Assembly (NCBI GenBank): GCA_002840435.1
Contig: PHAT01000003.1
Location: 1 to 64,000 of the forward strand
DNA from: Deltaproteobacteria bacterium HGW-Deltaproteobacteria-6
GTDB lineage: Bacteria; Desulfobacterota; Syntrophia; Syntrophales; Smithellaceae
Reading direction: 5' to 3'
Length of the DNA stretch: 64,000 nucleotides
Positions 4,471 through 53,651 of this stretch are shown piece after piece; the first letter of the stretch is position 1, and each line of letters begins with the position of its first letter. The translations under genes and the position numbers were made by a program. The notes beneath the pieces are model-generated. The model searched no databases. It was not told the DNA's origin and saw only the letters and a program-made list of their open reading frames with translations.

Positions 4471-5103
4471 TTAAGCCTTTATCATTCCTTTTATAAAAAG
4501 ATTGAGACTGTCTCTGACAGTCGTATGGATTCTTTCAGCACGTTTTTCGGGCGCTCCCGTGTAAATATAAAGAGAGATAATGCCGTTGAGCGATCCCCAG
4601 ATAGCGTTCTGTACTTGGCGTATATCAATATTTGGAACAAACTCGCCTGAATGAACACCCTTCTGAAGAATTTCAGAAACCGTACGGATATTTTCATTAG
4701 TGGTGTGAATCAACTGCGTATTTTGCTCCTCAGTCAGATTCATATTTTCCGAATGCAACATGAATGTCATAAGAATTCTGAACAATTCATTGTTATCAAG
4801 AAAAAAATTCACGTAATCACGCGCAAACATCAAAAGGAGTTCCGAAGCGGTTCCTTCCTGTTTGGCAAAATTTTCTACTTCTCGATGACGCTCGATATTA
4901 GCCGAGATCAATATCTGGGTATATATTTCTTCCTTGCTGTCGAAATATAAATATATAGAGCCTTTGCTGACTTCCGCTTTGGCGGCAATGAGATCAACGG
5001 TCACGGATTTAAAACCACGTTCAAAAAACAGCTTACGAGCTGCTTTCAGAATCGAGTTCTTCCGATTTTCCTTCTCTTTCTTTCTTCTTTCTTCTGAGCT
5101 CAA
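4471..5103 (-). CDS. TetR/AcrR family transcriptional regulator
   Basis: A 210-aa repressor with the classic N-terminal TetR helix-turn-helix (VDLIAAKAEVSKGSIYLYF, about residues 38-56) preceded by a very basic stretch. The all-helical C-terminal ligand domain is variable, and its ligand cannot be read from the sequence. The start is TTG at 5103, supported by AGAGGAGA about 8 nt upstream; no ATG fits better. It is convergent with the ModE-like gene, and 265 bp separate it from the thioredoxin-fold pair to the right. A 7-bp inverted repeat (5190-5196 / 5218-5224) lies upstream but has a 21-bp spacer, so it is a weak operator candidate. Confidence 0.88.
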   Translation of the reverse strand: MSSEERRKKEKENRKNSILKAARKLFFERGFKSVTVDLIAAKAEVSKGSIYLYFDSKEEIYTQILISANIERHREVENFAKQEGTASELLLMFARDYVNFFLDNNELFRILMTFMLHSENMNLTEEQNTQLIHTTNENIRTVSEILQKGVHSGEFVPNIDIRQVQNAIWGSLNGIISLYIYTGAPEKRAERIHTTVRDSLNLFIKGMIKA

Positions 5104-36877: not shown

Positions 36878-36953
36878 GGGGATGTAGCTCAGCTGGGAGA
36901 GCGCGGCGTTCGCAACGCCGAGGCCAGGAGTTCGATCCTCCTCATCTCCACCA
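36878..36953 (+). tRNA. tRNA-Ala, anticodon CGC
   Basis: A full cloverleaf of 76 nt with CCA encoded. Acceptor GGGGATG pairs with CATCTCC (one G-U), D stem GCTC/GAGC, anticodon stem CGGCG/CGCCG with loop TTCGCAA (anticodon CGC, reads GCG), T stem AGGAG/CTCCT with TTCGATC. Its 3' end is followed at once by an integrase gene and is the likely attachment site of the island. Confidence 0.95.
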
Positions 36954-36988: not shown

Positions 36989-37013
36989 AACCCGCTTCCA
37001 GAGCGGGTTTTTT
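36989..37013 (+). terminator. Terminator of tRNA-Ala
   Basis: AACCCGCT (36989-36996) pairs with AGCGGGTT (37002-37009), 5-nt loop, followed by a T-run. Confidence 0.85.
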
Positions 37014-37131
37014 GTTGTTCTTTGTCCAATTACGTGCTATAAGATTTATCAACATCCGGCGTTTTTGGGGGTACAATTACCCAAAATACCCCCAGCATAA
37101 AAACAAGATACCCCCAAAACGAGGTAATCAC

Positions 37132-38364
37132 ATGCCACTCAATGAAGTGAAGGTCCGTAACGCAAAGCCGAAAGAAAAATCTTATAAGCTTTCTGACAGC
37201 GAAGGTCTTTATCTGTACATCACAGAAACGGGCGGCAAGCTATGGCGCTTCAAGTATCGCTTCGATAATGATGGCAAAGGGAAAAAAGAAAAATTACTCG
37301 CCTTCGGTAAATATCCCGAAGTAAACCTTTACGATGCACGTCAACGGCGCGACGATGCACGGAGGCTGCTTGCAAATAACGTTGATCCCGGCGCGGTTCG
37401 TAAGGCACAGAAACAGGCCAAGGTTGAAGAAACTGAAACCTTCGAGGTCATAGCCAGAGAATGGCACAACAAATTTAAAACAAAATGGGCGGAAGGCCAC
37501 GCTCTAAAATACATGCGGCGCCTGGAGCTTGATCTTTTCCCGTGGATTGGCAAACGGCCAATCAAGGATATTACAGCGCCGGAGTTATTGGCGGCAATAA
37601 GACGCACAGAAGCACGAGGCGCGATAGACGGGGCGCACCGGTTGAGAGGTATCTGCAATATGATATTTAGATATGCCACTGCCACCGGACGCGCCCGGCA
37701 CAATCTGGCGCAGGATCTAATAGGTTCAATACCACCTGCACAGAAAAGACATCTGGCAGCCATCACAGAGCCGAAGGAAGTCGCCAAGCTTCTCCGGGCT
37801 ATCGATGGTTATCATGGTTCGTTTATCGTGCGGTGTGCTCTCAGGCTATCGCCGCTTGTATTTGTCAGACCGGGCGAGCTTCGCCACATGGAGTGGAGCG
37901 AACTTGATTTTGAAAATGCCGAATGGAATATCCCAGCACACAAAATGAAACTCCGGTTGCCGCATATCGTACCTCTATCAAGGCAATCTCTTGAGATTCT
38001 GAACGAAGTAAAACCACTTACAGGCGGCGGGGTTTATGTTTTTCCAGGAAGGACATCGAGCAGACCGATGAGCAATAATGCGATATTGGCCGCGCTCCGA
38101 AATATGGGCTACACTGCGGAACAAATGACACCGCATGGCTTCCGGGCAATGGCGCGAACGATATTAGATGAAGTTTTGCAAGTCCGTGTTGATCTTATTG
38201 AGGCGCAATTAGCGCATAGAGTTCTTGACGTATTAGGCAGAGCCTATAATCGAACGAAACACTTGCCTGAACGCCGGAAGATGATGCAGACATGGGCTGA
38301 TTATCTAGATGGATTAAAGGTCGGGGCAAAGGTGATAGCCTTCCCGAAGGGAGGTTCAAAATGA
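37132..38364 (+). CDS. int: P4-type tyrosine integrase
   Basis: A 410-aa site-specific recombinase that would move the island into and out of tRNA-Ala. The N-terminal arm-binding DUF4102 domain (residues 1-90) starts MPLNEVKVRNAKPKEKSY. The catalytic set is complete: R246 (VRPGEL), H335 and R338 (PHGFR), H362 (AHRV) and nucleophile Y372 (RAYNRT). The start is ATG 37132 with GAGGT upstream; an upstream frame to 37012 overlaps the tRNA terminator. The stop overlaps the start of a 30-aa frame. Confidence 0.95.
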   Translation: MPLNEVKVRNAKPKEKSYKLSDSEGLYLYITETGGKLWRFKYRFDNDGKGKKEKLLAFGKYPEVNLYDARQRRDDARRLLANNVDPGAVRKAQKQAKVEETETFEVIAREWHNKFKTKWAEGHALKYMRRLELDLFPWIGKRPIKDITAPELLAAIRRTEARGAIDGAHRLRGICNMIFRYATATGRARHNLAQDLIGSIPPAQKRHLAAITEPKEVAKLLRAIDGYHGSFIVRCALRLSPLVFVRPGELRHMEWSELDFENAEWNIPAHKMKLRLPHIVPLSRQSLEILNEVKPLTGGGVYVFPGRTSSRPMSNNAILAALRNMGYTAEQMTPHGFRAMARTILDEVLQVRVDLIEAQLAHRVLDVLGRAYNRTKHLPERRKMMQTWADYLDGLKVGAKVIAFPKGGSK

Positions 38365-51710: not shown

Positions 51711-51738
51711 TTGAATGTTTTTATTTGTATGGTAAAAT
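51711..51738 (+). promoter_or_regulatory. Predicted promoter of the large structured RNA
   Basis: TTGAAT (51711-51716), 16 bp, TAAAAT (51733-51738) with an extended TG in front of the -10 box. Transcription would start near 51745. Confidence 0.7.
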
Positions 51739-51744
51739 ACAAAC

Positions 51745-52916
51745 AAATTATAAATTTCAGTAGACCGCTGAACACCACTGACAGGGTAGTGGGTCGGCAA
51801 CGAACAGTTAATTAGAAAGTCGAGAACCCCGTGAAAAATCTCGGCTGGTAAAGTTAAACGCGAACCTCTAACAAGAATCTGGGTGATAGAGGTGAAAAGT
51901 CGATAAGTAAATCAGAATATCTGTACCTGCGGGCGAATGTAATTTCAGGATAATTAAGAATTAGAAAAATGGTAGCTGCAACCTGCTGCGAACACCTCAA
52001 AAGTAAGCGGGCAGAATGATCATACAATTAGGCCCATGGGCTGCGAATACATAAAAAAGGTGGGAAAAACGAGGATCCTCTCGACCACCCTGCCATCACC
52101 GTCGCCAAGGAATCTGTCGACCTGTCGAAATAGCAAAATAATCCAAAAGCCGAAGCAAGAAACAAGATCACGCTTTCCCCTAAAGAATTTGCCGTTTTTT
52201 AGAGGGAGGGTCCAGCAGCGTCAATGACTGGTAAGCCAACTAGTTAAATAGCTGTCTGGGGAGACCGCGTGGTGCTGGGAAACCAGCCTGCCATGTGGGA
52301 ACGAGGGCTGCTCGCGAAGGCGAGCTTCTACTCACTATCTGATCGAATTCGGGCGACCGTGATGGTAATCGAGACGTGGTTTGAACCCACACAGGGGGCC
52401 GGCAGTAATGCCAGAACCCTGCCGGAAGGGGGATTTTGCATATCGTAAGACTTGCAAAAAAATAGCTCAACCCTTCAAGCACCCAAAAGCGTTAAGGCGG
52501 GGGTGCAATCCGGGACGGAATGTAAAGGCGCTAGGCCATAGCTGCTTCGAAGCATTATGCGTGACAAGAAATCCCCATAATGGGGAGAGTAAGGCGATTC
52601 TTCTGGATTCTATCGCTTAACCATAATGTGGATACGCAACGCCTAACCATTCCTTAACTCTTGATTATTTAAACGGGTAACCGCCGAACGGCTCACTGTA
52701 AGTGAGAGCGAGGCGGGAGAAGCATTGCTGATCACCGTTCGAGGACCAAGGCAGGGCAGTCTTAGTACAAGCCTGATCGGTTGGCGCCGATCAAGAGGGG
52801 CACGGGAAAGGCAATATCCGAGATCTGTTTTCTTGCAGCAATAGGGGAGTCTGGCAACTTCCCGCCCTCATTGAGGGAGAGCCGGGAGGCTGCCAAAAAT
52901 AACCGGGAGGTAAAAA
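51745..52916 (+). ncRNA. Candidate large structured RNA (about 1.15 kb)
   Basis: A gene-free stretch full of perfect local helices: ACCTCT 51864-51869 with 51888-51893; GGTGG 52059-52063 with 52085-52089; GCTGG-GAAA-CCAGC 52274-52287 (GNRA tetraloop); GCTCGC-GAAG-GCGAGC 52310-52325; CCGGCAG 52399-52405 with 52419-52425; TTTTGCA 52434-52440 with 52453-52459; GCACCC 52479-52484 with 52501-52506; TCCCCA 52572-52577 with 52581-52586; CCGCC/GGCGG 52681-52716 enclosing CTCAC/GTGAG; GATCGG 52775-52780 with 52787-52792; and a three-tier hairpin 52853-52894. It has higher GC than its surroundings. It starts at a strong promoter and leads straight into a 202-aa gene with a terminator after it. No group II domain V, rRNA or known riboswitch was recognised. 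Confidence 0.6.
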
Positions 52917-53525
52917 ATGGCAATTAGCAATTGGATTGAATTTACCACATTGATTCTAAATTTTTCTGGACATGGATACTTTGAGTATTCATCATTTAAA
53001 ATTCCAGAAAAGAAAATGAAAAAAGCAGAGCAGATTGATGAACTAATCATTAAAAAGTACCCGGAAGTCAAATACAATAAAGATAAAAGATACCGCTGTA
53101 AGAAAGCGGGACTGGCCAATTTTACCTATATTCGTTGGAATAATGTAGGCGTGATCTTACGAACTGCTGGTAACGTGCAGGCAAGGCACGACGCGGATAA
53201 GTTTATCAACCTTTGCGAGGTGCCCTTGACCTTTACCGTGGGAAGTATGATCGAGATAAAGATTGCTAAGGGCAAGGCAGGTCGTAAATTTACCGCGTTC
53301 CTGTCAAAACAATCTTTTCGCGAAATCAAGGCGATCCTAAGGGAAAATATAAGACACCACAGGATGGATATAGCAAAGATGTATTGGGATCACCTCGGAT
53401 CACTGCCAGCTTTTGGCGGAATTTTGGGACAGATTATGGAACTGTTTAAATGGCTAAAGGTGGAGACAAAGGTCGCAGGCGTGAAAAAGTGGATTTGGTG
53501 CCGGTTGGTGCTACGACCACTCTGA
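52917..53525 (+). CDS. Unknown basic 202-aa protein linked to the structured RNA
   Basis: Not recognised. Very basic (KYNKDKRYRCKKAG, KIAKGKAGRKF, REIKAILRENIRHHR), with an aromatic C-terminus; well suited to bind RNA. No reverse transcriptase, HNH, RuvC or LAGLIDADG motif. Start ATG 52917 follows GGGAGG at 52905-52910. That site repeats the octamer CCGGGAGG found in the 3' arm of the preceding hairpin (52882-52889 and 52903-52910), so the site may be masked by strand exchange. It ends 15 bp before a terminator. Confidence 0.75.
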   Translation: MAISNWIEFTTLILNFSGHGYFEYSSFKIPEKKMKKAEQIDELIIKKYPEVKYNKDKRYRCKKAGLANFTYIRWNNVGVILRTAGNVQARHDADKFINLCEVPLTFTVGSMIEIKIAKGKAGRKFTAFLSKQSFREIKAILRENIRHHRMDIAKMYWDHLGSLPAFGGILGQIMELFKWLKVETKVAGVKKWIWCRLVLRPL

Positions 53526-53540
53526 TCATGTTAGCACTTC

Positions 53541-53573
53541 GCCGTATAAGCCAAATGGCTTATACGGCTTTTT
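53541..53573 (+). terminator. Strong terminator after the 202-aa gene
   Basis: GCCGTATAAGCC (53541-53552), AAAT loop, GGCTTATACGGC (53557-53568), then TTTTT. A perfect 12-bp stem. Confidence 0.93.
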
Positions 53574-53651
53574 ATGCAAAAATATTCAGTTGTGTTTAGA
53601 CAGCAGGGCATTAAGTATGGGAAGATCGCAATTTAAATGATATGCCCGCAG

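Follow-up and report, generated by a model that had tools for sequence, protein, structure and literature searches.

A long structured RNA beside a divergent acpG gene in a Smithellaceae contig: most likely a circularly permuted group II ribozyme, with a probable reduced maturase as its partner

Contig PHAT01000003.1 of Deltaproteobacteria bacterium HGW-Deltaproteobacteria-6 (assembly GCA_002840435.1) carries, ahead of a gene for a basic protein of 202 amino acids, more than one kilobase of DNA that is rich in predicted helices and apparently devoid of genes. What kind of RNA is encoded there, and what is the protein encoded next to it? We analyzed the first 64,000 nucleotides of the contig (hereafter the window), for which a sequence-only reading had proposed a large structured RNA tied to a basic protein in an apparently mobile element. 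This association is supported by the data presented below. The RNA does not represent a new class, and the protein is not the orphan it was taken for.

Organization of the locus and its genomic setting

The long structured RNA lies at positions 51757–52916 (all features given here are on the forward strand unless stated otherwise), upstream of the 202-amino-acid ORF. No plausible gene was found in this region among ORFs of at least 60 amino acids; three of 63–80 amino acids lie inside the RNA and one of 83 amino acids, on the other strand, overlaps its end. A promoter-like pair was found by eye at the place where a promoter had been suggested, with a TTGAAT -35 box (51711–51716) and a TAAAAT -10 box (51733–51738) separated by a 16-nt spacer. 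The protein gene, designated acpG hereafter, occupies 52917–53525 and is followed by an intrinsic terminator with a perfect 12-bp stem and a T-run (53541–53574, by eye). The unit had previously been delimited to 51745–53573; the end of these bounds matches the terminator, and the start falls 7 nt after the -10-like box.

The gene-less RNA, the protein gene and the perfect terminator are all present as had been described, and the unit is no chance pattern, as it recurs in a second genome of the genus, that of Deltaproteobacteria bacterium ADurb.Bin151 (G014; locus L003, the same as L019). The two proteins are 60% identical, the RNAs are identical at 741 of 1104 aligned positions (67%), the terminator stems are near-identical, and TTGACA/TAGAAT stands at the aligned place of the promoter-like pair. 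In a fold of 82 predicted pairs covering the 5' part of the RNA plus domain 5, 18 pairs have been retained although both partners changed, the structure having been predicted from the same two sequences that were used for counting.

The surroundings point to a mobile element. A tyrosine integrase gene (37012–38364; Pfam Phage_integrase, Phage_int_M and Arm-DNA-bind_3) adjoins a tRNA-Ala(CGC) gene (36878–36953), the probable attachment site, and 16 bp of the tRNA end (36931–36946) recur at contig position 112769 in a search of the window plus the next 100 kb. On these two grounds the locus probably lies inside an integrative element of about 76 kb inserted at tRNA-Ala, a setting that fits the plasmid homes of most relatives. 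A WYL neighbour occurs in 7 of 21 genomes, but it is paralogous, so that synteny defines no empty site. Besides the integrase, the probable element, of which 36878–64000 lies in the window, encodes a SNF2 helicase, a DnaE-like polymerase, an ERCC4 nuclease, AAA ATPases and WYL regulators.

Group II anatomy of the RNA

Rfam, which presumably contains models of OLE, GOLLD, ROOL and HEARO, gave no match to any of these four in the RNA region, either at gathering score or up to E 10. The general Rfam comparison that had been recommended was likewise empty, the RNA matching no family at gathering score and no relevant one up to E 10. Such a scan of the window alone would miss a group II identity, because the group II intron model RF00029 reaches its gathering score in only 2 of 11 loci scanned, at the same D5-D6 of a Planctomycetes K2D plasmid (pK2D_1, L004) and of Leptolyngbya pLBX (L007).

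The canonical domain 5 (D5) of group II introns consists of 3 + 5 bp, a 2-nt bulge, 5 bp and a tetraloop. The sequence-only reading had singled out a GCTGG-GAAA-CCAGC tetraloop hairpin while stating that no feature of known large RNAs was recognised. This hairpin is present at 52274–52287, and it is part of a conserved element with the exact D5 layout, CGC-GUGGU-GCUGG-GAAA-CCAGC-CU-GCCAU-GUG (52266–52297), including the catalytic triad (CGC) and the 2-nt bulge (CU). The overlooked feature is thus D5 of a group II ribozyme. Just 3' of it lies domain 6 (D6, 52303–52333), delineated by alignments and by the model CM R1, with a conserved UUCUA and a bulged branch-point A that the alignment would place at 52330.

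A descriptor combining the D5 layout with GGGCGA[CT] within 220 nt, designed after the loci had been seen, has a single site in the window, at 52266, and gave one match in 20 Markov windows of equal size. CM R1 was built without the window, from six sequences of five loci (L004, both copies of Calothrix plasmid5 or L006, L007, an Acidobacteria MAG, L016, and a Planctomycetaceae MAG, L017), and its sole match in the 64-kb window was 52266–52372 (E 7.7e-13). The model was then run on 16 of 28 sources (the window and L001–L027), a set that left out the five training loci, the copies L001, L002, L018 and L019, and L014, L015 and L020. All 16 were matched, 14 at the previously located D5 and two (L023 and L025) at new sites, with one extra row at chance level (L003:524, E 0.51). 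For L023 and L025, a second model representing the 3' part of D1 (CM R2) agrees with the new matches, about 300 nt further on. CM R1 matched none of L014, L015 and L020; the RNA of the last lies on L027.

Counting of D5 pairs in 15 sequences (excluding L016, L017, L021, L023, L025, L027 and the second copy in L006) showed pairing in 96.9% of cells (72.7 in shuffles), and 9 of the 13 pairs differed at both positions; this is not an independent proof, because these D5s were chosen by a descriptor that demands pairing. The comparison of pairs between the window and the second genome of the genus is free of this selection bias.

Among the 16 sources matched by CM R1 are Polaromonas pPNAP05 (L027, E 1.8e-12) and Thermus pTT8 (L021, E 1.1e-4). 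Of these, the P. naphthalenivorans plasmid bears a circularly permuted (CP) RNA that was found active, and pTT8 is named as a carrier of such an RNA (Roth et al. 2021, PMC8637638). OLE, GOLLD, ROOL and a wholly new RNA class were rejected on the Rfam scan, the descriptor and CM R1: the RNA groups with CP group II ribozymes published in 2021, and 51757–52916 is most likely a ribozyme of this known kind.

According to PMC8637638, the CP group II ribozymes (T-large RNA) have the domain order D5-D6-D1-D2-D3-D4, and GGGCG next to D6 is their 5' splice-site motif. In the window, GGGCGAC is found at 52351–52357, where D1 would begin, and the reversed internal splice sites read ACU/ATCTGATCGAATTC/GGGCGAC, with the NU typical of the 3' splice site. 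Applying a rule in which the 3' splice site falls six nucleotides after the branch A and the 5' splice site at GGGCG, we obtained for pPNAP05 a circle of 32 nt, equal to the published length for P. naphthalenivorans (PMC8637638). The same rule predicts for the window a 14-nt linker between the two sites (52337–52350) and hence a 14-nt RNA circle, just under the published range of 15–86 nt (PMC8637638).

D1 is placed at 52351–52650, with an approximate end, as judged from an order and spacing of blocks common to known-type loci; two of its conserved blocks are ATAGCTCAAC (52462–52471) and GAGTAAGG (52587–52594). D2-D3 is tentatively placed at 52651–52850 by eye; there, AGTACAAGCCTGATCGG from 52764 resembles AGTACCGAAAGCCTGGACCG in pPNAP05, also by eye. 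A D4-like hairpin (TGGCA..TGCCA, CTTCCCG..CGGGAGG; 52852–52895, by eye) stands just 5' of the gene. CM R2 matched the window at 52462–52580 with an E value of only 1.4; it found the right place in four of the eight window-type loci (E 0.7–4.1) and missed the other four, and it was strong (1.7e-8 or better) in four of five held-out known-type sources, missing L021. Since CM R2 is weak in the window type, the homology of D1–D4 in the window rests on the ordered short blocks. Inspection of the window by eye revealed no clear EBS1-IBS1 pairing.

The window RNA shares with CP group II ribozymes the order D5-D6-linker-GGGCG, the anatomy of D5 and D6, a home on a plasmid or element and an adjoining AcpG gene. 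It differs in its 5' extension of about 510 nt before D5 (51757–52265), which is conserved with the second genome of the genus in alignment and fold and occupies the place held by P1/P2 in known CP RNAs. The D5 triad is CGC in five of the eight window-type loci, the window included, versus the AGC given in PMC8637638, and the D5 loop is of the GNRA type in seven of the eight versus TAAT in most known-type loci examined.

AcpG and its likeness to group II maturases

The protein had been regarded as an orphan. Profiles of eight window-type and 15 known-type AcpG proteins, the latter including those of pPNAP05 and pTT8, were aligned by hhalign with a probability of 99.6 (E 1.6e-23), which identifies the 202-amino-acid protein as a divergent AcpG. 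Against the pTT8 protein alone, which we take to be TTHC007, the window-type profile gave a probability of 48 (E 1.9e-4), and the AcpG of the Planctomycetes plasmid shows 19–23% identity to eight proteins of the known type. Those window-type proteins whose start is clear are shorter, at 195–233 amino acids versus about 260 in PMC8637638. In that paper AcpG (the TTHC007 family) is presented as a protein often found beside CP RNAs and without homology to any other protein class. Here, on the other hand, a group II reverse transcriptase (RT)/maturase fold is predicted.

AlphaFold models were obtained for the AcpG of the window (pLDDT 85.8, pTM 0.80) and of the Acidobacteria MAG (pLDDT 82.3, pTM 0.71), two proteins that are 26% identical, both models being built from the same five sequences. 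Both are predicted to have an RT palm plus thumb (X) fold. In a Foldseek search of the PDB, the window model had no match at E ≤0.001 and its first two matches were group II intron RTs (0.06 and 0.097). When Foldseek's own candidates were re-examined with VIA-align, a tool whose note warns that best Z scores of 7–8 are common without true kinship, ranks 1–14 for the window protein were all group II or group II-like RTs (Z 9.4–8.3), led by 8t2r_D (Z 9.4, 3.2 Å, 172 aligned residues). For the Acidobacteria protein, ranks 1–12 were of the same kind (Z 9.1–7.8), with 6me0_C at Z 9.1 (4.4 Å, 181 aligned). Later ranks were mostly DRT, retron, spliceosome, DGR and telomerase proteins and viral polymerases, and a Rev1 domain came 16th for the window protein. 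No entry of the viral structure library matched at E ≤0.001.

Searches of the protein and its relatives with Pfam, PHROGs and NCBIfam, and with HMMER against the PDB, returned weak matches only, none of them to RTs, and Pfam RVT and GIIM had no match in AcpG. A structure-free comparison was therefore made between a profile of 23 AcpGs and another built from 24 group II intron-encoded proteins that genomes of the phylum carry; the latter set was widened from a first collection of two sequences, 24 of 39 loci passing a filter for length and YxDD, and columns with more than half gaps were dropped. The score was 33.5 (hhalign probability 26%, P 7e-4), compared with a mean of 13.8 and a maximum of 23.4 for 100 column-permuted controls and 15.7 for the reversed one. 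The alignment puts RWNNV on RYADD (RT5) and extends past RT7 to where the thumb begins. Taken singly, the window-type profile scored 33.4, and the known-type profile, at 22.8, fell within the range of the controls. Neither YxDD nor FxDD occurs in 22 of the 23 AcpGs, the window protein included. The AcpG of Paraphotobacterium (L011, 3905–4624) has YIDD at the RT5 place and is perhaps a less decayed member.

In ordinary group II introns the protein gene is carried by D4. The acpG ORF of the window is not inside D4; it starts just 3' of the predicted D4 place, beyond the D4-like hairpin seen by eye. Compared with group II RT/maturases (8t2r, 6me0, and the GsI-IIC RT 6ar1), AcpG shares a predicted fold of the palm end plus thumb and a profile similarity running from RT5 to the thumb; it differs in being about half as long as the matched chains, in lacking YxDD, in having its gene outside D4 and in its permuted partner RNA. 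On these predicted features, we suggest that AcpG probably represents a group II intron-encoded protein that has been reduced and is catalytically dead.

The most serious alternative accepts the CP RNA and holds that AcpG does not derive from an intron-encoded protein, its palm-thumb appearance reflecting convergence or a general RNA-binding fold. RT matches are indeed absent from the sequence searches, the best Foldseek E value is 0.06, the structural Z scores of about 9 are modest by the tool's own note, the hhalign probability is low and the known-type profile alone does not rise above the controls. Against this, group II RTs rank first for two quite divergent AcpGs, the structure-free alignment falls in the same register and exceeds all 100 permuted controls, and the RNA next to which AcpG is encoded is a group II ribozyme too. 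We consider such an independent origin unlikely, and favour the reduced intron-encoded protein. As far as we searched, the predicted group II RT/maturase likeness appears to be what is new here, the CP RNA class and AcpG being already known; in open-licence papers the likeness was not found in print, and among the matches listed AcpG (in this sense) and TTHC007 occurred only in PMC8637638.

Prp8 is an RT-like protein without RT activity that sits beside the D5-like catalytic RNA of the spliceosome. The Prp8:Aar2 entry 4i43_B was matched at Z 7.5 by the window AcpG and at Z 6.7 (8.4 Å) by the Acidobacteria AcpG; Prp8 is far larger than AcpG and the likeness is at the level of fold only.

Proposed mechanism, domain order and distribution

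We propose, with reasonable confidence, that the locus is transcribed as a unit comprising a CP group II ribozyme and AcpG, a likely shrunken intron-encoded protein that would act as maturase or chaperone. The anatomy, homology, gene order and predicted fold on which this model is based were computed; splicing of the window copy, binding and the maturase role are inferred. The transcript would fold with D5 and D6 upstream of D1, by analogy with the RNAs of PMC8637638; the bulged A of D6 (52330) would attack the 5' splice site, immediately 5' of GGGCGAC (52351). The end released in this way would attack in turn at the 3' splice site, which follows 52336, and the products would be a branched ribozyme RNA and the 14-nt circle. 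AcpG, having kept the palm end and thumb (maturase) part and lost the YxDD polymerase motif, would bind the ribozyme as maturase or chaperone. The gain for the element might be, at a guess and with low confidence, a branched RNP able to cleave complementary RNA or single-stranded DNA in trans; trans cutting by the CP ribozyme is one possibility raised in PMC8637638.

Could the RNA instead be an ordinary or decayed group II intron, with D1–D4 upstream of D5 and an unrelated RNA in the downstream half? The 510 nt of structured RNA ahead of D5 would suit this, and CM R1 also matches probable ordinary introns (matches in 11 of 59 relative genomes, one of them the CP RNA of G014), so that D5-D6 alone is no proof of permutation. 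In that scan 53 of 489 candidates passed a first-look filter, by which the window's own site, recovered by a direct search, was probably missed. Matches of CM R1 in further relatives, G007, G018 and G067 among them, include several near base 63 of a contig and probably represent repeated ordinary group II introns. The domain order nevertheless leads us to reject an ordinary intron as the main reading. GGGCGA[CT] follows D6, via a linker of 12–46 nt, in 21 of 22 stretches (the rule fails on L021, and L010 is doubtful), as it does in the published Polaromonas RNA; AGCTCAA lies downstream of the 5' splice site in 17 of the 22, and AGTA[AG] then follows in 14. In addition, the genome itself has no GIIM-bearing protein (0 matches), and the compensatory changes between the window and the second genome of the genus speak against decay. 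An unpermuted intron is thus very improbable. A separate large RNA class unrelated to group II introns deserves scarcely any credence: the empty Rfam result would agree with it, but RF00029 in L004 and L007, the D5 descriptor, CM R1 and the shared AcpG homology contradict it.

Returning to the CP ribozyme with its AcpG partner, a broader interpretation, for which we see even chances, is that the pair is a stand-alone splicing-type machine, combining a group II catalytic core with a domesticated, polymerase-dead remnant of that core's own RT. It would be an independent bacterial parallel to the pairing of catalytic snRNA with Prp8, in which the window-type branch, its acpG fixed directly behind D4, keeps the ancestral RNA-protein linkage and which plasmids and integrative elements retain for cutting RNA or DNA in trans. 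Few large ribozymes have been discovered in recent years, and those of the CP group II kind are among them. Should AcpG indeed be a dead maturase in reduced form, the RNA would have retained its helper, and the two together would be a small, expressible model of a self-splicing intron turning into a ribozyme plus a protein scaffold, a step presumed in the origin of the spliceosome. The proposal would be a first testable working model for the RNA-AcpG pair; the maturase reading predicts the binding mode of AcpG, which can be tested in Escherichia coli, some of whose plasmids bear the known-type pair.

Gene order mostly differs between the two types. All eight loci of the window type have acpG downstream of the RNA and in the same orientation. 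Among the 13 known-type loci whose RNA was located, the gene and the RNA lie on opposite strands in 12; the exception is pMtBL (L010), a small Pseudoalteromonas plasmid that carries an acpG relative and, where no genes are listed, a CP group II RNA. Searches with the protein and its relatives reached plasmids and genomes from distant phyla. In the annotated plasmid relatives, namely the Planctomycetes K2D plasmid pK2D_1, Planococcus pA26H1 (L005), Calothrix plasmid5 and Leptolyngbya pLBX, 1.3–1.7 kb without annotated gene lie directly upstream of the protein gene. The unannotated Acidobacteria and Planctomycetaceae MAGs have the same RNA motifs upstream, overlapped by long mechanical ORFs. PMC8637638 does not appear to name Planctomycetota, Cyanobacteriota or Acidobacteriota as phyla with CP RNAs, and its main text contains neither of the first two words.

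Of 99 genomes searched as relatives, two had the protein, one of them being the query genome, and a three-row profile matched 1 of 395 genomes of the phylum, the query genome itself. A scan of the genome collection with a protein pattern gave four loci; as this was the only such scan, the window type is probably undercounted. Four scans of viral contigs gave no relative, and no phage record had the window protein. A weak match to Gluconacetobacter (E 0.08) led to 32 plasmid records, of which the 30 listed came from Proteobacteria and Thermus. In the proteobacterial relatives a similar RNA lies mostly on the strand opposite to the protein gene.

E. coli plasmids of about 30 kb account for at least 10 of the 32 records with an acpG relative. 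On one of them, pFHI_NMBU_11_03 (L012), a known-type CP RNA at 4698 (- strand) is divergent to the acpG relative, and the pair, a tractable model, lies near a T4SS-family ATPase gene and ccdAB. AcpG relatives also occur on a Thermus plasmid (L014, 2151–2915) and a Novacetimonas plasmid (L015, 5001–6164), with no CP RNA found in the stretch examined. The reverse situation, CP RNAs without AcpG nearby, is reported in PMC8637638. Calothrix plasmid5 has two D5-D6-GGGCGAC copies, at 1637 and 3788, 2.1 kb apart, with acpG directly after the second only, an arrangement that points to duplication or to a shared AcpG acting on both RNAs.
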